The translations under genes and the position numbers were made by a program. The notes beneath the pieces are model-generated. The model ran no database searches and was not told where the DNA came from. It saw only the letters and a program-made list of their open reading frames with translations. Below, piece after piece: positions 44 through 11,962 of a stretch of DNA of 53,223 nucleotides; within the stretch, counting starts at the first letter, position 1; each line of letters opens with the position of its first letter. The DNA comes from Akkermansia muciniphila (GTDB lineage: Bacteria; Verrucomicrobiota; Verrucomicrobiia; Verrucomicrobiales; Akkermansiaceae), in assembly GCA_945873305.1 (NCBI GenBank), contig CAMCCX010000006.1, forward strand, positions 1-53,223, read 5' to 3'.

Positions 44-583
44 TTATTTGCCGACGCTTTTGCCTTCTTTGCGGCGAACTTTCTCACCGACGTAGCGAAC
101 GCCTTTGCCCTTGTAAGGCTCGGGTGGATAGAAGCCGCGGACTTCGGCAGCGAACTGACCGACGAGCTGCTTGTCGATGCCTTCGACCTTGATCTTCGTG
201 TTCTCAACGACCGTGACGTTGAGGCCGGAAGGGATGGGGTGAAGCAGCGGGTGCGAACGACCCAGCGAGAGGTCGAGTTCCGAGCCCTTGACTGCGGCGC
301 GGAGACCGACGCCGATGATTTCAAGATCCTTCACGAAACCTTCCGAAACGCCGACGATCATGTTCTGAACGAGGCTGCGGGCGGTGCCGTGGAGGGCTTT
401 GTGTTGGCGAAGCTCGGTGGCGCGGGAGACGACGACAGTGCCGTCTTCGCTGGTGAGCGAGATGCCTTCGGGAAGCGGGAAGTCGAGTTTGCCCTTCGGG
501 CCTTCGACGATCACCGTGCGGCCGTCAAGTTTGACGGCGACCTTCGCGGGGACAGAGATTGGTTTGAGTCCGACTCGTGACAT
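44..583 (-). CDS. rplF: 50S ribosomal protein L6
   Basis: This 179-residue protein is the large-subunit protein L6, which binds 23S rRNA near the factor-binding site. The start MSRVGLKPISVP and the C-terminal part PPEPYKGKGVRYVGEKVRRKEGK are typical of the family, and the length matches the usual 175-180 residues. It is the last gene of the spc-type cluster inside the window and lies 29 bases after rpsH, so it is almost certainly part of the same transcript. The ATG start is clear. The next gene of the cluster would lie to the left of the window edge. Confidence 0.98.
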   Translation of the reverse strand: MSRVGLKPISVPAKVAVKLDGRTVIVEGPKGKLDFPLPEGISLTSEDGTVVVSRATELRQHKALHGTARSLVQNMIVGVSEGFVKDLEIIGVGLRAAVKGSELDLSLGRSHPLLHPIPSGLNVTVVENTKIKVEGIDKQLVGQFAAEVRGFYPPEPYKGKGVRYVGEKVRRKEGKSVGK

Positions 584-612
584 GGTAGTGTTTTCCTTTG
601 ACGAGTTAGGGT

Positions 613-1008
613 TTACCAGACGTTGGCGAGGAGCTCGCCGCCGAGGTTTTGCTTCTTGGCGGAGCCGCCGGACATGACGCCTTTCGAGGTGGAAAGGATC
701 GAGATGCCGAGGCCGGACATGACGCGTGGAACTTCACCTGCGCCGACGTAGTGGCGGCGGCCGGGAGTGGAGACGCGCTTGAGGTCGGTGAGGACCGCGC
801 GGCCGTCGATGAACTTCGGCTTGGCCTTGAGCGTGGTGCGCTCGCCAGTGACGACTTCATAGTTCCAGAGGTAGCCTTCTTCCTGAAGAATGCGGGCGAT
901 GTCGGCCTTGATCTTGGAGTAAGGAGCGGAGAATTCCTCATTGCCCGCACGGGCGGCGTTTTTGAAACGCGTGAGGAAGTCGGAGATTGGATCGGTGAGA
1001 ACTGCCAT
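613..1008 (-). CDS. rpsH: 30S ribosomal protein S8
   Basis: This 131-residue protein is S8, a primary binder of the central domain of 16S rRNA. It starts MAVLTDPISDFLTRFKNA and ends with the conserved block ISILSTSKGVMSG followed by GGELLANVW, as usual for S8. It lies only 33 bases after rplE. In the textbook spc order rpsN (S14) sits between these two genes. Here the gap is too short to hold it, so S14 must be encoded elsewhere. Confidence 0.98.
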   Translation of the reverse strand: MAVLTDPISDFLTRFKNAARAGNEEFSAPYSKIKADIARILQEEGYLWNYEVVTGERTTLKAKPKFIDGRAVLTDLKRVSTPGRRHYVGAGEVPRVMSGLGISILSTSKGVMSGGSAKKQNLGGELLANVW

Positions 1009-1041
1009 AATAGGATTCCTTTTAAAGTGTGGGTCCGGTGT

Positions 1042-1626
1042 TTAGTTGGCAGCGACGGCCTCGAGTTCGTTGGCCTTTTTCATGTCGCGGAAAGGCAGGC
1101 CAAGCTCCATGAGCAGGGCGCGGCCTTCGGCGTCGGTCGGTGCGGAGGTCACGAAGATCAGGTCGAAGCCGATGGTGCGCTTGATCTGGTCGATTTCGAT
1201 TTCCGGGAAGATGGATTGGTCACTGATGCCGCAGGCGTAGTTGCCGCGACCGTCGAACGACTTCGAGGAAATCCCGCGGAAGTCGCGGATGTTCGGAGCG
1301 GTGACGTTGATGAACCGGTGAAGGAATTCCCACATGCGGGCGCCACGGAGGGTGACGCGGGCGCCGAGGGCTTCTCCTTCACGGAGCTTGAAGTTGGCGA
1401 CGGCCTTCTTCGAGAAAGTGATGGACGGGCGTTGGCCGGTGATCTTTTGGATCTCGTTGACCGCGTCATCGACGGCGACCTTGCGGTCCGGTGCCTTGCC
1501 CATGCAAGAAGTGACCACGATCTTTTCAAGACGTGGAACCTGATGGAGGTTGGTGTATCCGAGGCTCTTCTTGAGCGCGGGGACGACCTTGTCCTTGTAG
1601 TGTTGTTGTAGTGCTGGTGTGCTCAT
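1042..1626 (-). CDS. rplE: 50S ribosomal protein L5
   Basis: This 194-residue protein is L5, which binds 5S rRNA and contacts P-site tRNA. Recognisable blocks include ITGQRPSITFSKKAVANFKLREG in the middle and the C-terminal region with IFPEIEID and the TSAPTDAEGRALL segment. The length is slightly above the usual 180 because of short extensions at both ends. It follows rplX by 58 bases and precedes rpsH by 33 bases in a co-directional run. Confidence 0.97.
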   Translation of the reverse strand: MSTPALQQHYKDKVVPALKKSLGYTNLHQVPRLEKIVVTSCMGKAPDRKVAVDDAVNEIQKITGQRPSITFSKKAVANFKLREGEALGARVTLRGARMWEFLHRFINVTAPNIRDFRGISSKSFDGRGNYACGISDQSIFPEIEIDQIKRTIGFDLIFVTSAPTDAEGRALLMELGLPFRDMKKANELEAVAAN

Positions 1627-1684
1627 GTTTTTGCGGGTCAGCGCTGATTGCTCAGGCGCTTAAGCGCGGGCGGAAGCTTTCGCT

Positions 1685-1915
1685 TCAGCCCACTTTTTTG
1701 ACATTGGAGATATGGACCGGGCCGTCGATGGTCTTGAGACCGCCGGAATCGGCTTCGGTGGCTTTGACGGCCTTGATGATCGGGCGGCCACCTTCGACGG
1801 TGACCTTGCCCTTGGCGGCGTTCACAAGCAGCACGGTGCCGCGCTTGCCTTTGTGATTGCCTGCGATGATTTCGACTTGATCGCCTTTTTTGACGTGGGT
1901 CTTGATGCGGCTCAT
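1685..1915 (-). CDS. rplX: 50S ribosomal protein L24
   Basis: This 76-residue protein is L24, an assembly initiator of the large subunit. The N-terminal KOW motif is visible as [21 protein letters not shown], and the later block with [11 protein letters not shown] is the family's C-terminal strand region. At 76 residues it is at the short end of the family (usually about 75-105). It lies 34 bases after rplN and 58 bases before rplE. Confidence 0.96.
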
Positions 1916-1949
1916 GAAATTGGAATGGGTGAGGAGTTAGGGCCGAGGT

Positions 1950-2315
1950 TCAGAGAACTTCGGGGGCGAGGGAAACGATTTTCATGAACGCGCGCTCGCG
2001 GAGTTCACGGGCGACGGGTCCGAAGATCCGGGTACCGCGCGGGTTGTTGTCCTTGTCGATGATGACGACCGCGTTGGAGTCAAAGCGGAGGATCGAACCG
2101 TCGGCGCGGCGGATCGGATAGGCGGTGCGGACGACCACGGCCTTCACGACGCTGCCTTTCTTGACGGCGGCGGTCGGGATGGAGTCGCGGATGTGGCAGG
2201 TGATCACGTCACCGATGCAAGCGGTGCGGCTGCGCTTGCCGAGCACGCCGATCATTTTTGCGCTGCGCGCGCCGGTGTTGTCGGCGACGACGAGCATGGT
2301 TTCCATCTGGATCAT
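1950..2315 (-). CDS. rplN: 50S ribosomal protein L14
   Basis: This 121-residue protein is L14, which lies at the subunit interface. It begins [17 protein letters not shown] and ends [17 protein letters not shown] followed by [11 protein letters not shown], nearly identical to the canonical pattern, and its length is typical. It is separated from upstream rpsQ by 54 bases that contain a small repeat. Confidence 0.98.
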
Positions 2316-2330
2316 GACAATAAATTAGGT

Positions 2331-2366
2331 AAAAGCTGAAATGCTGAAAAACGGAGAAGCTGAAAT
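2331..2366. repeat. short GCTGAAA-type repeat between rpsQ and rplN
   Basis: The spacer between rpsQ and rplN contains repeated GCTGAAATG and GCTGAAAAA words, three in about 36 bases. A similar run of CAGCGTTTCAGA and TTTCAGCG words occurs between gatC and gatA at 45063-45096. The sequence is not coding and looks like a simple dispersed intergenic element. Confidence 0.55.
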
Positions 2367-2369
2367 GGA

Positions 2370-2639
2370 TTAGTGCGAGATGACTTCGGCGAGCGTCCAG
2401 CACTTCAGTTTGGAAAGCGGACGGGTCTCGACGATGCGGACGCGGTCGCCGATCTGGCCCTGGTTGCTCTCGTCGTGCACGTAGTATTTCTTGGAGCGCT
2501 TGACGATTTTGTTGAATTTCGGGTGGGGAACACGGGCGACGTGTTCGACCACGAGGGTCTTGTCCATTTTGTTGGAAATGACCACGCCGACGCGGGTTTT
2601 ACGGAGGTGGACTTGTGCGTCCGAAGGAGTCTCGCTCAT
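2370..2639 (-). CDS. rpsQ: 30S ribosomal protein S17
   Basis: This 89-residue protein is S17, a primary 16S rRNA binder. The conserved stretch [19 protein letters not shown], the block [19 protein letters not shown] and the motif [13 protein letters not shown] are all present. The length is normal. It lies 24 bases after rpmC in the usual rplP-rpmC-rpsQ order. Confidence 0.98.
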
Positions 2640-2663
2640 GGTAAGAATAGGTTGGAACTTGGA

Positions 2664-2858
2664 TTAGGCGAGCGACTTGGCGGTGACGGCCGTGAGCACT
2701 TGCGCGGTTTCGCGACGCACCTGGCGGATGCGGGCGGGATTTTCCAAAGTGCCGGTGGCGCGTTGGAGACGAAGGTTGAGAGCTTCCTGTTTGAGTTCCC
2801 GAAGACGGACTTCGAGCTCGGCGGAGGAGAGTTCGCTGGTGGTTTTGGCTTTGGCCAT
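2664..2858 (-). CDS. rpmC: 50S ribosomal protein L29
   Basis: This 64-residue, mostly helical protein is L29, found at the nascent chain exit site. The block LRELKQEALNLRLQRATG and the following ENPARIRQVRRETAQVLT are the family signature. It lies between rplP (36-base gap) and rpsQ, its standard place. Confidence 0.96.
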   Translation of the reverse strand: MAKAKTTSELSSAELEVRLRELKQEALNLRLQRATGTLENPARIRQVRRETAQVLTAVTAKSLA

Positions 2859-2894
2859 GGTTCAGACGGTATTAGATTGAATTGATCTAGCGGA

Positions 2895-3314
2895 TCAGGC
2901 GTGCGGATTGCGGGCGACGAGGCGGGTGCGGATGCCGAGCTTGTAGGATGCGAGACGCATGGCCTCCTTGGCTGCGGATTCAGGAACACCACCGATTTCG
3001 AAGAGCATGTTGCCCGGACGGATGACAGCCACCCAACCTTCGACAGCGCCTTTGCCTTTACCCATCCGGGTTTCCGGAGGACGCGAGGTGATGGACTTGT
3101 GTGGGAAAATCCGGATCCAGACTTTTCCTTTCCGTTTGAGCGAGCGGTTGATCGCGATCCGGCAAGCTTCGATCTGGCGGTTGGTCATCCATCCGCGGTC
3201 GAGGGTTTGCAGACCGAAGTCACCGAAGGCGACGGTGGTTCCGCGCTGGGCGTTACCGGAGCGGCTTCCGCGGTGGCTTTTGCGGAACTTGGTTCGTTTG
3301 GGCATCAAAGGCAT
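2895..3314 (-). CDS. rplP: 50S ribosomal protein L16
   Basis: This 139-residue protein is L16, located near the A-site tRNA elbow in the large subunit. [16 protein letters not shown] at the start, the block [11 protein letters not shown]-like [14 protein letters not shown] and [19 protein letters not shown] are diagnostic. Two starts are possible: [10 protein letters not shown] from 3314 or MPKRTKF from 3305. The longer form is common in the family and is chosen here. Confidence 0.98.
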
Positions 3315-3365
3315 AACTCGGTCCTTCTATGAAAAGTGTTGTTTGGGAATTGAGAGATTGAAATA

Positions 3366-4103
3366 TCAGTTGCGTGGATTCGGGCGACGATCGCCTCCGC
3401 GATCCCCACCACCGCCACGACGATCGCCGCCGCGGTCACCACGGTCGTTGCGACCTTGGGGTTGCTTGCCGGTGCCGTCGTCTTCCTTCTTGTTGACCCA
3501 GCACTTGATGCCGATGATGCCATACAAGGTGCGGGCTTCGGCGAAGCCGTAGTCGAGAGGAACACGGAGAGTTTGCAATGGCACTTTGCCTTCGCGATAG
3601 CCTTCGGCACGGGCGATGTCCGCACCACCGAGGCGGCCGGCGCAACGGAGACGAATGCCTTCGGCACCGAATTCCATGGCGGTTTGCAGCGCGCGCTTCA
3701 TGGCGCGGCGGAAGGAAATCCGGCGCTCAAGTTGCACGGCGATTTGCTCGGCGACGAGTTGGGCGTCCAGCTCGGGCTTGCGGATTTCGATGATGTCGAT
3801 CTTCACCTGGGCACCTTTGCAGAGGCCGGTGATGTCCTTGGTCATCACTTCGATTTCCTTGCCTTGGCGACCGATGATCAAACCGGGACGGGAAGTGTGA
3901 AGCGTGACGCGGACGCTGTTCCAAGCGCGCTCGATGACGACGCGGGCCAGACCGGCGTTCACCAGCTTGTTCTTAAGATAGCCACGGATCGCGAGATCTT
4001 CGTGGAGCTTGTCGGTATAATCTTTGCCGCTGGCATACCATTTCGAGCGCCAGTCTTTGTTGACTGCGAGACGGAATGCGATCGGATTTACTTTTTGGCC
4101 CAT
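3366..4103 (-). CDS. rpsC: 30S ribosomal protein S3 with RGG-rich tail
   Basis: This 245-residue protein is S3, part of the mRNA entry channel. It begins MGQKVNPIAFRLAVNKDW, and the KH-type RNA-binding motif is visible as GLIIGRQGKEIE near residue 80. The core ends near residue 205 (GIIGIKCWVNK). It is followed by about 40 residues rich in Arg, Gly and Asp with repeated [16 protein letters not shown]. This tail is longer than in most bacteria and would be flexible and RNA-binding. It sits between rplV and rplP as expected. Confidence 0.98.
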   Translation of the reverse strand: MGQKVNPIAFRLAVNKDWRSKWYASGKDYTDKLHEDLAIRGYLKNKLVNAGLARVVIERAWNSVRVTLHTSRPGLIIGRQGKEIEVMTKDITGLCKGAQVKIDIIEIRKPELDAQLVAEQIAVQLERRISFRRAMKRALQTAMEFGAEGIRLRCAGRLGGADIARAEGYREGKVPLQTLRVPLDYGFAEARTLYGIIGIKCWVNKKEDDGTGKQPQGRNDRGDRGGDRRGGGGDRGGDRRPNPRN

Positions 4104-4133
4104 ATTCGGTGAGGGATGAAATTAAGAGGTGTA

Positions 4134-4559
4134 TCAGGCTTGTTCTTCAACAGCTGCGGCAGCGGCTGGAGCTTCTTCGGTTTTTTTGGCAGCAGCCTTG
4201 CGGGCGACCTTCTTTTTCTTCTCGGGGGCGGAACCGACGAGAGTGATGGAGATGTGGCTGGTGCGCTTGAGGATCGGACCGGCGGATCCCTTGGCGCGCG
4301 GCTTGAACCGGCGAAGCGTCGGACCGGCGCCGATGACGGCTTCCTTGATCACGAGCGTCGAGGCATCGAGCGAGAAATTGTTTTCGGCATCCGCGATGGC
4401 GGTCTTGAGCGTCTTGCCAATGAGCTGTGCGGCTTTCTTGGGCGTGAAGGTCAGAATATCAAGGGCGCTCGATACGGCGAGGCCTTGAATTTCGCGGGCT
4501 ACGTCACGCGCCTTTTTAGGCGAGAGGCGAACGAATTTAGTGGTGCTTTTGACTTCCAT
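4134..4559 (-). CDS. rplV: 50S ribosomal protein L22 with Ala/Lys/Glu tail
   Basis: This 141-residue protein is L22, which lines the exit tunnel. KFVRLSPKKARDVAREIQG at the start and GPTLRRFKPRAKGSAGPILKR near the middle are diagnostic. After about residue 110 there is an added low-complexity tail of Lys, Ala and Glu (EKKKKVARKAAAKKTEE and then an alanine run). Upstream of it, where rpsS is expected directly, an unrelated secreted protein gene is inserted 20 bases away. Confidence 0.97.
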   Translation of the reverse strand: MEVKSTTKFVRLSPKKARDVAREIQGLAVSSALDILTFTPKKAAQLIGKTLKTAIADAENNFSLDASTLVIKEAVIGAGPTLRRFKPRAKGSAGPILKRTSHISITLVGSAPEKKKKVARKAAAKKTEEAPAAAAAVEEQA

Positions 4560-4579
4560 GGAACGTCGGACGTGAGTGG

Positions 4580-5305
4580 TTACTGCGCGGATGCTTGTGT
4601 TTCGAGAACGGCGAGATCGCCGGGGCGTGGGGATTCGGCGACGTTGTCGAGGTGTTCGACAAAGGCACCACTGACGCCCTTGCGGACGTCAGCGAGAATG
4701 GCGTTACCGTAGGGCTGTTGCCCGCGGGTGAGACGAAAGGTCATGCCGATTTTAGCGCCTTGGCTTTCGCCAAGATTCAAAACCATCATGCCACTTTCTT
4801 GATCGAGACTGACAATCCGGGCCTGCTGCAAGGAGCCGGTCCGAATATCGGGGCGGGGCTTCTGGCGCAGTCCGAGGACAGCGTCAAGCTCTCTTAGTGA
4901 AGTTTCCACACGAAGTCTTGCATCCGGGTCGGAAACCACCGCCAGGCGGAGGTAATCGTTGACCGCGGCGGAAAGGCGCGTGACGGAATTTTCGAGGTTG
5001 GCGGTGCGCTCGCTTGCGAGTTGCAAGTCCGCGGCGGCCTGGACGAGGCGGTCGTCCCCTCCGTCGAGCAGGTTCTTGCCGAGTGCTTCGAGACGCTCGC
5101 GGACTTGGGCCAATTGGCCGGACGCTTGCTTCTCTCCGCTGTTGGCCTCGGCGAGGCTGCGCTGGAGAACCCGGTTCTGCTCCTGGAGATCGACGATGAT
5201 TTCCTGAAGCTCCCCGGCGTTTGGCGCTTGGCCCGCACACGTCCCGGCAACGGCCAGCGACCCGAGGGCGGCGGCAAATGCTGAGAGATGGAAGGTGGAA
5301 CGCAT
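4580..5305 (-). CDS. secreted coiled-coil protein inserted in the S10 operon
   Basis: This 241-residue protein is not ribosomal. It has an N-terminal signal peptide (Met-Arg start, hydrophobic stretch LSAFAAALGSLAVAG, likely cleavage near AGQA). A long predicted coiled coil follows at about residues 30-115, rich in Glu, Gln, Leu and Arg. The C-terminal domain, about residues 150-235, looks beta-rich (ARIVSLDQESGMMVLNLG, then GAKIGMTFRL and GNAILADVRKGVSGAFV). The C-terminal part loosely recalls small beta-barrel domains found in other secreted coiled-coil proteins, but I cannot assign a family. The gene lies in the operon between rpsS (27-base gap) and rplV (20-base gap), in the same orientation, so it should be made at ribosomal-protein rates unless separately controlled. 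Its function is unknown. Confidence 0.85.
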   Translation of the reverse strand: MRSTFHLSAFAAALGSLAVAGTCAGQAPNAGELQEIIVDLQEQNRVLQRSLAEANSGEKQASGQLAQVRERLEALGKNLLDGGDDRLVQAAADLQLASERTANLENSVTRLSAAVNDYLRLAVVSDPDARLRVETSLRELDAVLGLRQKPRPDIRTGSLQQARIVSLDQESGMMVLNLGESQGAKIGMTFRLTRGQQPYGNAILADVRKGVSGAFVEHLDNVAESPRPGDLAVLETQASAQ

Positions 5306-5332
5306 GGACGTAGGGGAGTGAACCGAGGTGGA

Positions 5333-5605
5333 TTATTTCTTACCGATGCCGCCGTGGGTCTTGAAGATCCGGGTCGGGGAAAATTCGCCGAGTTTGTGGC
5401 CAACCATGTTTTCGGTCACGTAAACGGGAACGAAGGTTTTGCCGTTGTGGACGGCGAAGTTATGGCTGACGAAATCCGGGGTGATCATCGACTTGCGGCT
5501 CCATGTCTTGATGGGCTTGCGGTCGGATCCGGCTTCGGCGACGGCGTCGATCTTGGCGAGAAGCTTTTGATCGACGTATGGGCCTTTTTTGAGTGAGCGT
5601 GGCAT
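5333..5605 (-). CDS. rpsS: 30S ribosomal protein S19
   Basis: This 90-residue protein is S19, in the head of the small subunit. It starts [20 protein letters not shown], and the block [21 protein letters not shown] is characteristic. The C-terminal part [16 protein letters not shown] is also typical. It follows rplB by 35 bases. Its usual neighbour rplV is displaced by the secreted coiled-coil gene. Confidence 0.98.
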
Positions 5606-5640
5606 GAAATCAGTGAGTTAGATGGTTCGCTAAAAGTGGA

Positions 5641-6486
5641 TTACTTCTTCTTCGCTTTGTGACGGGACTCGACAATGAAGACGCTGGTGGTCTTGCGCTT
5701 GTTACGAGTCTTCTGACCCTTCGCGTGGCCCCATGGGCTGGTAAGGTGCTGGCGACCACCACCGGACTTCGACTTGCCTTCGCCACCACCGTTCGGGTGG
5801 TCAACCGGGTTCATCGTCATGCCGCGGACGGTCGGGCGAACGCCCTGCCAGCGGGTGCGGCCGGCTTTGCCCGAGGTTTCGTTCATGTGGTCGCGGTTTC
5901 CGACTTGGCCGATCGTGCAGAAGCAGCGGTCGTTGAAGCGGCGGATTTCACCGGAAGGCATTTTCACCAGCGCCCAGCCGCCATCGCGGTTGGAGAGCAC
6001 GGCGAGCTGGCCGGCGGCGCGGGCGACTTTGCCACCGTTGCCTGGGATGAGCTCGATGTTGTGGATCGAGGTGCCGAGCGGCACGGCGCTGAGTGGCATG
6101 GCGTTGCCCGTTTTCGGAGCGACGTTGGCGCCGGCGACGACGGTGGTTCCGACTTCCAGGCCGAGTGGGGCGAGGATGTAGGATTTCTGGCCGTCTTCGT
6201 ATTGGATGAGGGCGATGCGGCAGGTGCGGTTCGGATCGTATTCGATGCCGACGACGGTTGCGGGCGCATCGTGCTTGCCACGACGGAAGTCGATCAGACG
6301 GTAGTGGCGCTTGTGGCCACCGCCGATGTGACGGGTGGTGATGCGGCCGGTGTTGTTACGGCCGCCGCTGCGCTTGAGAGGCGTGAGAAGACTCTTCTCA
6401 GGCTTGCTTTTGGTAATCTCGTCGAAGGACGGGAGTTGCTTGTAGCGAGCGGACGGGGTGATTGGCTTGAAAGTTTTCAGGGGCAT
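5641..6486 (-). CDS. rplB: 50S ribosomal protein L2
   Basis: This 281-residue protein is L2, needed for the peptidyl transferase centre. [18 protein letters not shown], the RNA-binding block [20 protein letters not shown] and the C-terminal block [19 protein letters not shown] containing the conserved His are all visible. The length is normal. It lies between rplW and rpsS in standard order. Confidence 0.98.
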
Positions 6487-6533
6487 GACAATCGGAACGT
6501 TAGAGTGTTACGTTTGGGGCTGCGGTAAATCGC

Positions 6534-6818
6534 TTAGACGAGATCAAGCGATTCGCCTTCCTTGAGGCGGACGATGGCTTTTTTCCAGTGGTTGGTGCGA
6601 CCGGCGTCGGCACGACGCTGGCGCTTGAGTTTGCCGTCGTAGTTGGCAGTGCGGACTGCCAGAACGGTTTTTCCGAAGAGTTGTTCGACGGCCTGCTTGA
6701 TTTCAAGCTTGTTGGCCTTGCGGTCCACTTCGAGGGTGACCTCGTTGTTGTTCTCCTGAAGCATGGTGGCTTTCTCGGAGAGGCGGACGTTTTTAATGAC
6801 CTGGTAAATGTCTTTCAT
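6534..6818 (-). CDS. rplW: 50S ribosomal protein L23
   Basis: This 94-residue protein is L23, the docking site for trigger factor and SRP at the tunnel exit. The start KDIYQVIKNVRLSEKAT, the block VDRKANKLEIKQAVEQLFG and VRTANYDGKLKRQRRADAG show the family. It lies 23 bases after rplD and 47 before rplB. Confidence 0.97.
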   Translation of the reverse strand: MKDIYQVIKNVRLSEKATMLQENNNEVTLEVDRKANKLEIKQAVEQLFGKTVLAVRTANYDGKLKRQRRADAGRTNHWKKAIVRLKEGESLDLV

Positions 6819-6841
6819 GATCTCGGTGTTAGGTCCGGGGT

Positions 6842-7450
6842 TCAGGCGGTGCGAGCCGCGAGGGTTTGCACGGCATCACCCACGAGGATGATGGTGTTGG
6901 CGAGGAGGAGTTGCTCGACGTTGACGTCCGAACCCGTGACGAGTTGGGCGTAAGCGACGTTGCGGGCGGCGAGGTAGGTGGAGTCGTCGAAGGAATTTCC
7001 AACCACGAGGATCTTGCCGAGAGGCGCGATGGCGTCGAGAGCCGCCACAAAGGACTTGGTCTTGCCATCGGCAACGGCGAACGAAGCGACGGTCAGAACC
7101 TTGCCGGCGCTAACAAGGTCACCCAAGGTGCGGCGGAGAGCGAGCTTGCGGACGGTCTTCGGAACCTTCTTGGAATAGTCGCGGGGGCGTGGTCCGAAGA
7201 CAACACCACCACCGACGAAGATCGGAGCGCGCTTGTCGCCGTGACGGGCGCCACCGGTGCCCTTTTGTTTGTAGATCTTGCGGTTGTTACCGGAGACCTC
7301 GCCCCGGGTCTTGGTGCAAGCGGAGCCGGTGCGGCGGTTGGCGCGATAGGCGACCACGAGATCGTGGACGGCTTGGCGACCTTTCTCGGCACCTACCAAC
7401 ACGAGGTTGGCGGCTTGAGCGTCTTCTGCGGTGAAAGTCTTAGCGGACAT
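6842..7450 (-). CDS. rplD: 50S ribosomal protein L4
   Basis: This 202-residue protein is L4, which reaches into the exit tunnel and in some bacteria represses its own operon. The extended loop is visible as RTGSACTKTRGEVSGNNRK followed by YKQKGTGGARHGDKRAPIF, and the C-terminal domain contains NVEQLLLANTIILV. The length is normal. It lies 38 bases after rplC and 23 before rplW. No L4-binding leader could be identified upstream of rpsJ. Confidence 0.97.
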   Translation of the reverse strand: MSAKTFTAEDAQAANLVLVGAEKGRQAVHDLVVAYRANRRTGSACTKTRGEVSGNNRKIYKQKGTGGARHGDKRAPIFVGGGVVFGPRPRDYSKKVPKTVRKLALRRTLGDLVSAGKVLTVASFAVADGKTKSFVAALDAIAPLGKILVVGNSFDDSTYLAARNVAYAQLVTGSDVNVEQLLLANTIILVGDAVQTLAARTA

Positions 7451-7488
7451 GACTGTGAATCGTGAGAGGTTTCAAAAATGCCACCAAA

Positions 7489-8124
7489 TCAGGCGGACTT
7501 TTTCTTGGCTGGGCGGACGGTGACGTAGTTGCCGTTGGAACCGGGAACCGCACCAGAGACGAGGATGACGCCGTCTTCTTTGCGAACGGCAACGACCTTG
7601 AGATTTTGAACGGTCGAACGGGTGGTTCCCATGTGGCCGGGCATCTTTTGGTTTTTCCAAACGCGACCTGGGGTCGAGCGGCAACCGATGGCGCCCGTCC
7701 GGCGGTGCATCATGGAGCCGTGGGTCATCTTCAAACCACCGAATCCGTGGCGCTTCACAGCACCTTGGAAACCGCGGCCCTTGGATTCGCCGATCACGTC
7801 AACCCACTGGCCTTCGGTGAAGGTGTCGAGACCCGGATGAACTGCTGGAAGCTCGACGCCGTTTTCGACGCGGAATTCCTGGATGAAACGCTTTGGAGCG
7901 CAACCGGCCTTCTTGGCGATGCCGAGAGCGGGCTTGCTGGCGCGTTGTTCCTTTTGATCGCCGTAGCCGACTTGGACCGCGGTGTAACCGTCGGTTTCAG
8001 GGGTCTTCGATTGGAGAATCGTGTTACCGGAAACTTCGATAACAGTAACAGGGATCATGATGCCGGCCTGTTGGTCGAACAGGCGGGTCATACCGATTTT
8101 TTTGCCGAGGAGGCCGAGTGACAT
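7489..8124 (-). CDS. rplC: 50S ribosomal protein L3
   Basis: This 211-residue protein is L3, one of the first proteins to assemble on 23S rRNA. LGLLGKKIGMTRLFDQQAG at the start, the block GFGGLKMTHGSMMHRRTGA and TPGRVWKNQKMPGHMG contain the conserved loop reaching the peptidyl transferase centre. The length is normal. It is separated from rpsJ by a 56-base spacer with an AAATTT-type repeat. Confidence 0.98.
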   Translation of the reverse strand: MSLGLLGKKIGMTRLFDQQAGIMIPVTVIEVSGNTILQSKTPETDGYTAVQVGYGDQKEQRASKPALGIAKKAGCAPKRFIQEFRVENGVELPAVHPGLDTFTEGQWVDVIGESKGRGFQGAVKRHGFGGLKMTHGSMMHRRTGAIGCRSTPGRVWKNQKMPGHMGTTRSTVQNLKVVAVRKEDGVILVSGAVPGSNGNYVTVRPAKKKSA

Positions 8125-8129
8125 GGCTT

Positions 8130-8161
8130 TGGAAATTTGAGATTTGAAATTTGAAATTTAA
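8130..8161. repeat. GAAATTTGAGATTTGAAATTT simple repeat between rpsJ and rplC
   Basis: The spacer upstream of rplC carries a run of near-identical words (GAAATTTGA, GATTTGAAATTT, GAAATTTAAG) repeated over about 32 bases. It is very AT-rich compared with the flanking genes and looks like a small dispersed intergenic element. It lies directly before the rplC start codon, where it may affect translation. Confidence 0.5.
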
Positions 8162-8180
8162 GAAACAGACGCTCCTGAAC

Positions 8181-8489
8181 TTAGATGCGGATGGTGATAT
8201 CGACACCGGCAGGGAGGTTGAGCTTCTTGAGCTCGTCCACGGTGCGGGCGGTAGGATCGACGATGTCGAGAAGGCGCTTGTGAGTGCGGATTTCGAACTG
8301 TTCCATCGACTTTTTGTTAACGTGAACCGAGCGGTTGACGGTGAACTTCTCGATACGGGTCGGAAGTGGGATCGGGCCGGCGACGCGGGCGCCGGTGCGT
8401 TTCGCGGTCTCCACGATTTCTTGGGCGGAGCGGTCGATCGCGCGGTGATCGAAGGCGCGCAGACGGATGCGGATTTTCTGATTTTCCAT
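8181..8489 (-). CDS. rpsJ: 30S ribosomal protein S10 (NusE)
   Basis: This 102-residue protein is S10, which also serves as transcription antitermination factor Nus[29 protein letters not shown] is visible across residues 6-33 and [19 protein letters not shown] follows; both are diagnostic. It lies 57 bases after fusA with no tuf gene in between, so the str and S10 clusters are joined. Confidence 0.98.
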
Positions 8490-8546
8490 ATGGAGGTTGT
8501 TTGACGGTTTACGTGGTGGGGCTACAGGGCGAGTAATCAGAACAGG

Positions 8547-10688
8547 CTAACCGAGACGGTCGCTGACGATTTCTTCGACGATATTGGTTGGGACTTGCTC
8601 GAAGTGCGATGGAGTCATCGCATACGAGGCGCGTCCCGAGGAGAGGGTGCGGACGGCGGTGGAGTAGCCGAACATTTCTTTGAGAGGCACATTGGCATGC
8701 ACGATGGAGAGCTTGCCTTTGGACTCGGTGTTTTGGATCTGTCCGCGGCGGCGGCTCAGATCGCCCATGACGTCACCTTGGTAATCGTCAGGGGTGGAAA
8801 CCTCCACGGCCATGATCGGCTCGAGTAGGATGGACTTGGCTTTCTTGAAGCCGTCCTTCATGGCGAAAATGGCCGCCATGGTGAAAGCGTTTTCGTTGGA
8901 ATCAACGTCGTGGTAGGAACCATCGAGGATTTCAACATGGACGTCGATGACGGGATAACCGGCGACGATGCCGTTGGTCATCGACTCGTTGATGCCCTTG
9001 TAAACGGCGTTGATATATTCTTTAGGAATGGTGCCACCGATGACTTTGTTCTCGATGGTGAGTCCCTTGCCCTTTTCGTTCGGCTTAACGGAAAGAATCA
9101 CGTGGCCGTATTGACCGCGGCCGCCGGATTGTTTGATCAACTTGCCTTCGCCGCCAGCGGCTTGAGTGATGGTCTCGCGGTAGGCGATTTGTGGAGCGCC
9201 GGTATTCGCCTCGACTTTGAACTCGCGGCGGATGCGGTCGATGATGATCTCCAGGTGAAGTTCACCCATTCCGGAAATGATGGTCTGGCCGGTTTCCTCG
9301 TCGGTCTTGACCATGAAGGTCGGGTCCTCTTCGGAGAGGCGGCCAAGTGCCATGCCGAGTTTCTCCTGGTCGGCCTTGGTGCGGGGTTCGACGGCCATCG
9401 AGATGACCGGTTCCGGGAAAGTCGGGGGCTCGAGAACCACGTCGTGGTTTTCGGCGGCGAGCGTGTCGCCGGTGGTGACATTCTTGATGCCGACCATGGC
9501 GGCGATGTCACCGGAATAACAGGCGTCGATGTCCTTGTGCTCGTTCGCCTGGATTTGAATCAAGCGGCCGACGCGCTCGGAGCGGCGGGTGCGGGGGTTG
9601 TAAACCGTGTCTCCCTTGCGGATGACGCCGGAATAGACGCGGAAGAAAACGAGTTTGCCAACAAACTTGTCGGCCCAGAGCTTGAAAGCGAGGGAAACGA
9701 ACTTGTCGTTGTCCGAGGTGACGACTTCGATGTGTTTCTCGTGGTCGTCGGGGTCCATGCCAATGGCCGCCGGAATGTCGAGCGGGCTTGGGAGGTAATC
9801 GATGACCGCATCGAGCAGATACTGGACACCCTTGTTTTTGAAAGCGGAACCACCGGCAACGGGCACCAGCAGATTGTTGATCGTGGCGCGGCGGATGCCT
9901 TGCTTGAGCTCTTCGAGAGTGATCGGCTCTTCGTTGAGGAATTTTTCGCCGACCACGTCATCCACATCGGCAACCGCGTTGACGAGCTCGTCGTGGGCTT
10001 CTTTGCAGAGATCGATTAGATCGCCTTCAAGTTCCTTCACCGTGTAGGTGGAGCCGAACTTGTCGTCGTCGGAGTAATAGATCGCCTTTTGGTTCACCAC
10101 GTCGATCTGGCCGATCAACTGGTCTTCGGCACCGATCGGGATGAGGATGCGAACGGCATTTGCACCGAGTTTATCCTTCACCTCGTCGAACACGCTTTGG
10201 AAATCCGCGCCGGTGCGGTCCATCTTGTTGACGAACACGATCCGCGGAACGTGGTATTTCGAAGCTTGCCGCCAGACGGTTTCGGTCTGCGGCTGGACGC
10301 CGGCGACACCGCAGAAAACGACGATGCAACCATCCAACACACGAAGGGACCGCTCGACTTCAGCAGTGAAGTCAACGTGTCCCGGAGTATCGATGATATT
10401 GATGCGTTGTTTCTGACCGGGGAAAAGCTTGGTCATCCCCTGCTCCTCGTGCTGCCACCACTCGGTGGTGACGGCGGCGGAGGTGATGGTGATTCCACGC
10501 TCGCGCTCCTGCTCCATCCAGTCGGTCGTCGCGCCACCATCGTGAACTTCGCCGATCTTGTGAATCATTCCTGTATAGAACAGGATCCGCTCGGTGAGCG
10601 TCGTCTTGCCCGCGTCAATGTGCGCGGCGATCCCGATATTTCGGGTGCGCTCGAGCACGTATTGGCGGTTTGGACTGTTCGGATTCAC
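8547..10688 (-). CDS. fusA: translation elongation factor G
   Basis: This 713-residue GTPase moves tRNA and mRNA through the ribosome after each peptide bond. The G1 motif AHIDAGKTTLTERIL, the G3 motif DTPGH and the G4 motif NKMDRTG are all intact. The C-terminal domains carry the usual GMGELHLEII block and SGGRGQYGHV. The length is normal for EF-G (about 700). It is 30 bases after rpsG and 57 before rpsJ, so the gene is embedded in one long ribosomal transcript. Confidence 0.98.
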   Translation of the reverse strand: MNPNSPNRQYVLERTRNIGIAAHIDAGKTTLTERILFYTGMIHKIGEVHDGGATTDWMEQERERGITITSAAVTTEWWQHEEQGMTKLFPGQKQRINIIDTPGHVDFTAEVERSLRVLDGCIVVFCGVAGVQPQTETVWRQASKYHVPRIVFVNKMDRTGADFQSVFDEVKDKLGANAVRILIPIGAEDQLIGQIDVVNQKAIYYSDDDKFGSTYTVKELEGDLIDLCKEAHDELVNAVADVDDVVGEKFLNEEPITLEELKQGIRRATINNLLVPVAGGSAFKNKGVQYLLDAVIDYLPSPLDIPAAIGMDPDDHEKHIEVVTSDNDKFVSLAFKLWADKFVGKLVFFRVYSGVIRKGDTVYNPRTRRSERVGRLIQIQANEHKDIDACYSGDIAAMVGIKNVTTGDTLAAENHDVVLEPPTFPEPVISMAVEPRTKADQEKLGMALGRLSEEDPTFMVKTDEETGQTIISGMGELHLEIIIDRIRREFKVEANTGAPQIAYRETITQAAGGEGKLIKQSGGRGQYGHVILSVKPNEKGKGLTIENKVIGGTIPKEYINAVYKGINESMTNGIVAGYPVIDVHVEILDGSYHDVDSNENAFTMAAIFAMKDGFKKAKSILLEPIMAVEVSTPDDYQGDVMGDLSRRRGQIQNTESKGKLSIVHANVPLKEMFGYSTAVRTLSSGRASYAMTPSHFEQVPTNIVEEIVSDRLG

Positions 10689-10718
10689 GGACGGAATTGC
10701 TGGAACGCTATCGATAGA

Positions 10719-11192
10719 TTAGAAACGGAAGTGAGCGAAGGCGCGGTTGGCTTGCGCCATCTTGTGCACGTCGTCGCGTTTGCGGACGGCACTGCCTTGG
10801 TTGTTCGCAGCGTCCTTGATCTCGTTGGCGAGAGCGACGTGCATCGGAGTGCCCTTGCGGTTGCGGGCGTAGTTGACGAGCCAGCGCATGGAGAGCGACT
10901 CGGAACGGTCCGGAGCCACTTCGAGCGGCACTTGATAGGTCGCACCACCGACGCGGCGGGATTTGACTTCCACGCGTGGCTTGGTGTTTTCAACGGCGCG
11001 GGTGATCACTTCGAGAGGGTCGATGGTATCGACACCTTCGTTAGCGCGATCGATCGCGGCGTAAACGATGCGTTGAGCGAGTGAACGCTTTCCGGATTCC
11101 ATCACCTTGGTAATAAGGTGACCAACGAGGGCGCTGTCGTAGCGAGGATCGCGACGGTCTGGCTTGGTAAAGATGCGCTTGCGGCGTGGCAT
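10719..11192 (-). CDS. rpsG: 30S ribosomal protein S7
   Basis: This 157-residue protein is S7, a primary binder of the 3' major domain of 16S rRNA. MPRRKRIFTKPDRRDPRYDS at the start, VEVKSRRVGGATYQVPLEV in the middle and the C-terminal NRAFAHFRF fit the family. It lies 34 bases after rpsL and 30 before fusA. Confidence 0.98.
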   Translation of the reverse strand: MPRRKRIFTKPDRRDPRYDSALVGHLITKVMESGKRSLAQRIVYAAIDRANEGVDTIDPLEVITRAVENTKPRVEVKSRRVGGATYQVPLEVAPDRSESLSMRWLVNYARNRKGTPMHVALANEIKDAANNQGSAVRKRDDVHKMAQANRAFAHFRF

Positions 11193-11887: not shown

Positions 11888-11962
11888 TGGTGGCAGCGGG
11901 CGGATTCGAACCGCCGACCAAGGGCTTATGAGTCCCCTACTCTACCGCTGAGCTACGCTGCC
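11888..11962 (-). tRNA. tRNA with CAU anticodon, probably elongator tRNA-Met
   Basis: A full cloverleaf can be folded. The acceptor stem is GGCAGCG/CGCTGCC, discriminator A73 is followed by an encoded CCA, the T-arm is GGCGG-TTCGAAT-CCGCC, and the anticodon loop is CTCATAA. The first pair is G1-C72, so it is not the initiator, which has an unpaired first position. Elongator Met is most likely. A tRNA-Ile read as CAU and modified by TilS is possible, because the variable loop TGGTC resembles that species. The flanking bases AACCTGG and CCAGGTT extend the acceptor helix. The gene lies upstream of the ribosomal cluster promoter. Confidence 0.93.

Follow-up and report, generated by a model that had tools for sequence, protein, structure and literature searches.

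The position of X in the S10 operon

The S10 operon is among the most conserved gene strings of bacteria, and in the locus studied here a gene for a protein of the exported type lies within it. In the window (the whole stretch of DNA that was analysed, 53,223 nt), an ORF that starts with ATG, according to the ORF list and the translation, runs from 5305 to 4580 on the minus strand and encodes a 241-aa protein that combines a signal-peptide-like N-terminus, helices and a beta domain, as judged from ORF calls and homologues. We use X as the working label for this protein. The initial annotation had placed a same-strand gene between rpsS and rplV, with gaps of 27 and 20 bases, and both statements held. 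The upstream neighbour, rpsS (uS19; 5333-5605, minus strand), and the downstream neighbour, rplV (uL22; 4134-4559, minus strand), score above the Pfam and NCBIfam cut-offs, and the spacers measure 27 nt (rpsS-X; 5306-5332, minus strand) and 20 nt (X-rplV; 4560-4579, minus strand). Further downstream lies rpsC (uS3; 3366-4103, minus strand), identified by a curated model, and the remaining upstream part of the operon, rplB, rplW, rplD, rplC and rpsJ (5641-8489, minus strand), was assigned from the gene order, which is the same in relatives. X itself is covered by no curated family, and its Pfam matches are sub-threshold and confined to the helical stretch. When the operon was searched with Rfam no structured RNA was found, a tRNA being the sole match; a tRNA gene lies at 11891-11962 on the minus strand, upstream of rpsL. 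X lies on the same strand as its neighbours, is separated from them by short gaps, and holds its position at the scale of the class, and this is what we take as residency in the S10 operon.

Occurrence of X in the order and in the class

A search among relatives detected a homologue of X in 56 of 59 genomes of the same order and in 42 of the 42 high-quality genomes. The three genomes that lacked it (G002, G020 and G027) also lacked rpsS in their assemblies. A one-off insertion, which the initial annotation had named as a finding that would refute its reading, was not what we found: X is present in each of the 56 same-order genomes with a recognisable rpsS, and no close relative open to checking had it at another position. 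The identity drops from 97% within the genus to approximately 26-38% for homologues from five further families of this order. In every same-order locus that was read the rpsS-rplV gap was filled by an ORF on the same strand (234-310 aa), including loci for which the window protein gave no tblastn match.

For the class, rpsS, rplV and X were each searched in an identical set of 141 genomes and the rpsS-rplV gap was computed. The gap was trimodal, i.e., longer than 500 nt in 76 genomes, 390-457 nt in 12, and 200 nt or less in 46, and two further gaps (227 and 337 nt) contained no X-like ORF. Strong full-length matches to X lay exactly between rpsS and rplV in 75 of 76 cases, and in the 76th genome the rplV match fell on another contig. 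The gaps of intermediate length encode proteins of 111-130 aa that have a hydrophobic N-terminus and the beta domain only, with profile matches inside the gap for 11 of these 12 genomes. No gene was present between rpsS and rplV in 47 genomes of the class sample, which belong to 21 families, and in genomes without X the two genes are rejoined at 25-130 nt. These comparisons indicate that X is neither universal nor obligatory, with clean loss in many families and a beta-only form in one clade. Other arrangements were also observed. Two genomes of 0.9 Mb (L105 and L106; G084 and G075) carry 148-313 nt of apparently decayed sequence at the X site, and X is retained in a 2.5-Mb genome that belongs to their family. 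In L093 (G185) a long insertion rich in Pro, Ala and Lys precedes the helical part and brings X to 558 aa, and in L107 (G113) a gap of 552 nt holds a 127-aa ORF that is not recognisable as X.

X beyond the class and in split operons

Apart from the named records, taxonomic affiliations are given here by kinship label. X was also found between rpsS and rplV in families outside the class (f54, f56, f61, f64, f66 and f73). Of the 76 genomes sampled outside the class, 38 had rpsS and rplV far apart or on different contigs. Twenty-one such split loci were read, and in 16 of them a homologue of X lay 12-117 nt upstream of rplV (hmmsearch E-values of 5e-12 to 5e-26), so that X precedes rplV-rpsC-rplP (loci L231-L239, L242-L244, L247, L248, L250 and L125, from several families). 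It follows that the operon was broken between rpsS and X, and that X was kept with rplV. In a tree built for 64 loci from five ribosomal proteins, X occurs on both sides of the deepest split, seven present/absent changes are needed, and one clade has reduced X to the beta domain. With ancestral presence at the root, the seven changes translate into about six or more losses; this implies that X has been present since the base of the Verrucomicrobiota and was lost at least about six times.

A profile search of contigs added Verrucomicrobium sp. BvORR034 and BvORR106, a Phragmitibacter MAG and others to the carriers of X, and among the 15 loci whose stored contig extends to the neighbouring genes nearly all have X between rpsS and rplV. 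X was found only in Verrucomicrobiota, the phylum to which the searches were confined. The literature searched yielded no description of the rpsS-rplV gene. The PVC signature protein CT421.2 (PMC3444138) was considered, but it is a different protein of only 53-80 aa. Taken together, the sequence comparisons present X as a real, old and standing member of the S10 operon in most Verrucomicrobiota, inherited vertically either within the operon or just ahead of rplV.

The homologue in Akkermansia muciniphila

The X homologue of A. muciniphila (G151) has 236 aa and lies between rpsS and rplV (L191:6231-6941, minus strand). We take this genome to be that of the type strain; its M60 protease matches PDB 7sci, an Akkermansia protein, over its length. 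In the published locus tags of this species, L16 is AMUC_RS01690 and S10 is AMUC_RS01735 (PMC7671984), and the interval has room for exactly one extra gene, so that X should be AMUC_RS01705, as interpolated from the tags rather than read directly. The ribosomal cluster Amuc_0294-0308 has been reported to be upregulated as a complete cluster on GlcNAc versus mucin (PMC11480725), and from its inferred position X would fall within this range.

Predicted export signal, helices and beta domain of X

The initial annotation had described a signal peptide, a long coiled coil and a beta-rich C-terminal domain. A signal-peptide-like N-terminus and a beta domain are predicted, with approximately 115 residues of helix between them, and weak Pfam coiled-coil matches in the helical part would fit a coiled coil. 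The N-terminus of X (MRSTFHLSAFAAALGSLAVAGTCAGQ; approximately residues 1-27, 5225-5305, minus strand) is signal-peptide-like by hydropathy, with a peak of 2.0 over 12 residues, and has low pLDDT in the model. A hydrophobic, signal-like N-terminus was observed in 93% of 106 family members, as scored by hydropathy, and most of the members without it look like start-codon choices. The canonical lipobox is absent from X, and a lipoprotein was rejected, as a strict lipobox was found in only two loci. The claim that a protein of the exported type is embedded in the S10 operon thus agrees with both the signal-like N-terminus and the conserved position, and we hold the position, age and export of X, taken jointly, to be highly probable.

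Residues 30-144 (4874-5218, minus strand) are predicted to form a helical stalk, probably a coiled coil, with a conserved LEALG hinge (residues 72-76) and a conserved R86-L87. AlphaFold2, run with a 15-sequence alignment, predicted three helices (residues 30-79, 85-121 and 127-144) and, at approximately 161-235, a beta domain with a pLDDT of about 93, and a second run with the Verrucomicrobium X protein gave the same layout. The pTM values of the two models were low (0.39 and 0.32), which makes the modelled stalk arrangement and the oligomeric state tentative. A phage scaffold identity was rejected, since the match to Pfam PF06810 (9e-5) is below the family's own cut-off and covers the helical stretch only.

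The C-terminal, FlgT_C-like beta domain (residues ~159-236; 4598-4831, minus strand) carries the residues conserved across the family. G179 is present in each of the 106 sequences without exception, and G187, R208 and D230 are found in 104, 101 and 103 of them, respectively, beta-only forms included. The beta domain would be the functional core of X: one clade retained only the signal peptide and this domain.

Selection, codon usage and transcription signals

In seven genus pairs the dN/dS of X was 0.11-0.28, compared with 0-0.09 for the ribosomal neighbours, and its dS was within the range of the neighbouring genes. These values point to purifying selection on the X ORF, and they indicate that it is the protein, and not the RNA, on which selection acts.

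The initial annotation had further proposed that X is made at ribosomal rates, and here codon usage speaks against it. The codon adaptation of X is 0.47, compared with 0.60-0.76 for the ribosomal genes of the window, and in 12 of 21 loci, A. muciniphila included, it was lower than for any of the ribosomal genes. That X is an abundant envelope component, as the initial annotation also suggested, is a proposal. The spacers would fit X being read together with the ribosomal genes. No promoter-like site above chance was found in the pyrimidine-rich rpsS-X spacer or in the X-rplV spacer, and the stretch between rpsS and rplV, the latter spacer included, contains no minus-strand terminator-like site, so that nothing was detected that would isolate X from the operon. 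We infer that X is co-transcribed with rpsS and rplV on the S10 mRNA. Neither spacer carries a Shine-Dalgarno sequence, and in the genus such a motif preceded X or rplV in none of 30 loci. In the window (583-11192) about 16 of the 19 ribosomal genes likewise lack a Shine-Dalgarno sequence; their leader is rich in pyrimidines and has C at -1 before the ATG.

Possible functions of X

As the best explanation, which we rate at about an even chance of being correct as a whole, X would be an ancestral, phylum-wide envelope scaffold or docking protein whose supply is coupled to growth by its standing membership of the S10 operon. X would be made from the S10 mRNA, leave the cytoplasm by the Sec route and act in the periplasm, where its helices would form an oligomeric stalk with the FlgT_C-like beta domain (G179/G187/R208/D230) as a docking module. 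One envelope scaffold or assembly factor would in this way be supplied in step with ribosome production and hence with the growth rate. The scaffold or docking role taken alone is the least certain step, and we put it somewhat short of even. Codon adaptation below that of the ribosomal genes argues against a very high output of X, and with at least six losses X must be dispensable in many lineages. A stronger version, which we advance only tentatively, would make X an ancestral growth-coupling device, in which the scaffold gene lies between rpsS and rplV or leads the split rplV operon, and one transcript sets both envelope capacity and ribosome number.

Three other readings were weighed. X could be a periplasmic chaperone or export-quality factor of the Skp type, whose dose follows the rate of protein synthesis and hence the export load. 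Its predicted make-up of a signal peptide, long helices and a small beta domain is broadly Skp-like, and coupling a chaperone to ribosome synthesis would be sensible, as for secY in the spc operon. However, no Skp/OmpH Pfam domain was detected in the window protein at E-values up to 10, nor was it among the 25 most frequent matches in 15 relatives; moreover, the beta domain resembles FlgT and not Skp, and the helical arms were dispensed with in one clade. We consider this reading unlikely.

Alternatively, X might be a historical passenger, i.e., an old insertion held in place by the inertia of gene order, whose envelope function is useful but has no relation to the ribosomal genes and whose co-transcription carries no regulatory meaning. 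The many losses and the one truncation, which left the operon without visible change, would fit, as would the codon use of X, which is not ribosome-like. Yet its position has been held over phylum-scale time, the strong homologues in the class have essentially never moved (75 of 76), and the X-rplV linkage outlasts operon fission. The last point argues against pure inertia, and we regard the passenger reading as distinctly doubtful.

The position of X directly upstream of rplV in split operons, where it precedes rplV-rpsC-rplP, could also suggest a role that is mainly in cis, in which translation of a secreted leader recruits the S10 mRNA to the membrane or, in a SecM-like manner, senses secretion, and so adjusts rplV and the later genes. 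The synonymous sites of X, however, are no more constrained than those of its neighbours. Furthermore, no conserved C-terminal arrest sequence of the SecM type was found; the tails of X, where arrest peptides act, vary, and conservation resides in the folded beta domain. Together with the many clean losses, in which rpsS and rplV were rejoined at 25-130 nt, this argues against an obligatory cis role, and we regard a leader function as improbable. Finally, a one-off insertion or a spurious ORF in a MAG, which could at first not be excluded, is refuted by the conservation of X across families and classes and by its purifying selection.

How cells coordinate their envelope with ribosome synthesis is a standing question of growth physiology, and a secreted protein that would have been in the S10 operon since the base of the phylum, and that stayed with rplV where the operon was broken, points to a direct link between the two. 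X would be testable through the genetics of V. spinosum (PMC12283558) and through the A. muciniphila homologue. It may also serve as a phylum marker.

Comparison with known systems

When the window and Verrucomicrobium X proteins were used as queries in Foldseek, the top matches were FlgT chains (8z5n and 3w1e; E-values of 2e-5 to 6e-5). FlgT, the Vibrio flagellar T-ring protein (PF16538, FlgT_C; PDB 3w1e and 8z5n), is like X an exported protein with this C-terminal beta-domain fold, and hhalign of the X beta domain with the FlgT_C-bearing proteins of the class gave 85%, but X lacks the N and middle domains of FlgT. The FlgT_C Pfam model did not match the window protein; eight of 15 relatives matched, with a best E-value of 0.0089, which is short of the cut-off. 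A flagellar T-ring protein was rejected, since the L-ring gene flgH is absent from the window genome, from A. muciniphila (G151) and from the Verrucomicrobium relatives. The FlgT_C-like domain occurs in varied proteins, and therefore this likeness does not fix the function of X.

MreC, the elongasome scaffold (PF04085), shares with X the order of a helical stalk and then a beta domain in the periplasm, and its structures rank below or next after FlgT in Foldseek (2j5u, E-value of 9e-4). There is, however, no match in sequence, with hhalign probabilities of 5% for the domain and 23% for the full length and no PF04085 match in Pfam. An MreC orthologue was rejected on the 5% for the domain and because the true MreC is encoded elsewhere in the window genome (G000:C44).

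Closer in sequence are the TM-anchored helical plus beta proteins of Verrucomicrobiota, which have a homologous beta domain (hhalign 98%, E-value of 1e-14) and a helical stalk. These paralogues differ from X in that they are encoded outside ribosomal operons, often two in tandem, and have an N-terminal membrane anchor instead of a cleavable-type signal (e.g., L054:3555-5572, L055:2547-4157, L058:3961-5929 and L053:4604-5755).

As for the position of the gene, the nearest parallel is secY of the spc operon, likewise an envelope/export gene within a ribosomal-protein operon and tied in this way to ribosome synthesis; secY, however, is near-universal and encodes the translocon, whereas X is itself an exported protein and its gene belongs to the S10 operon.
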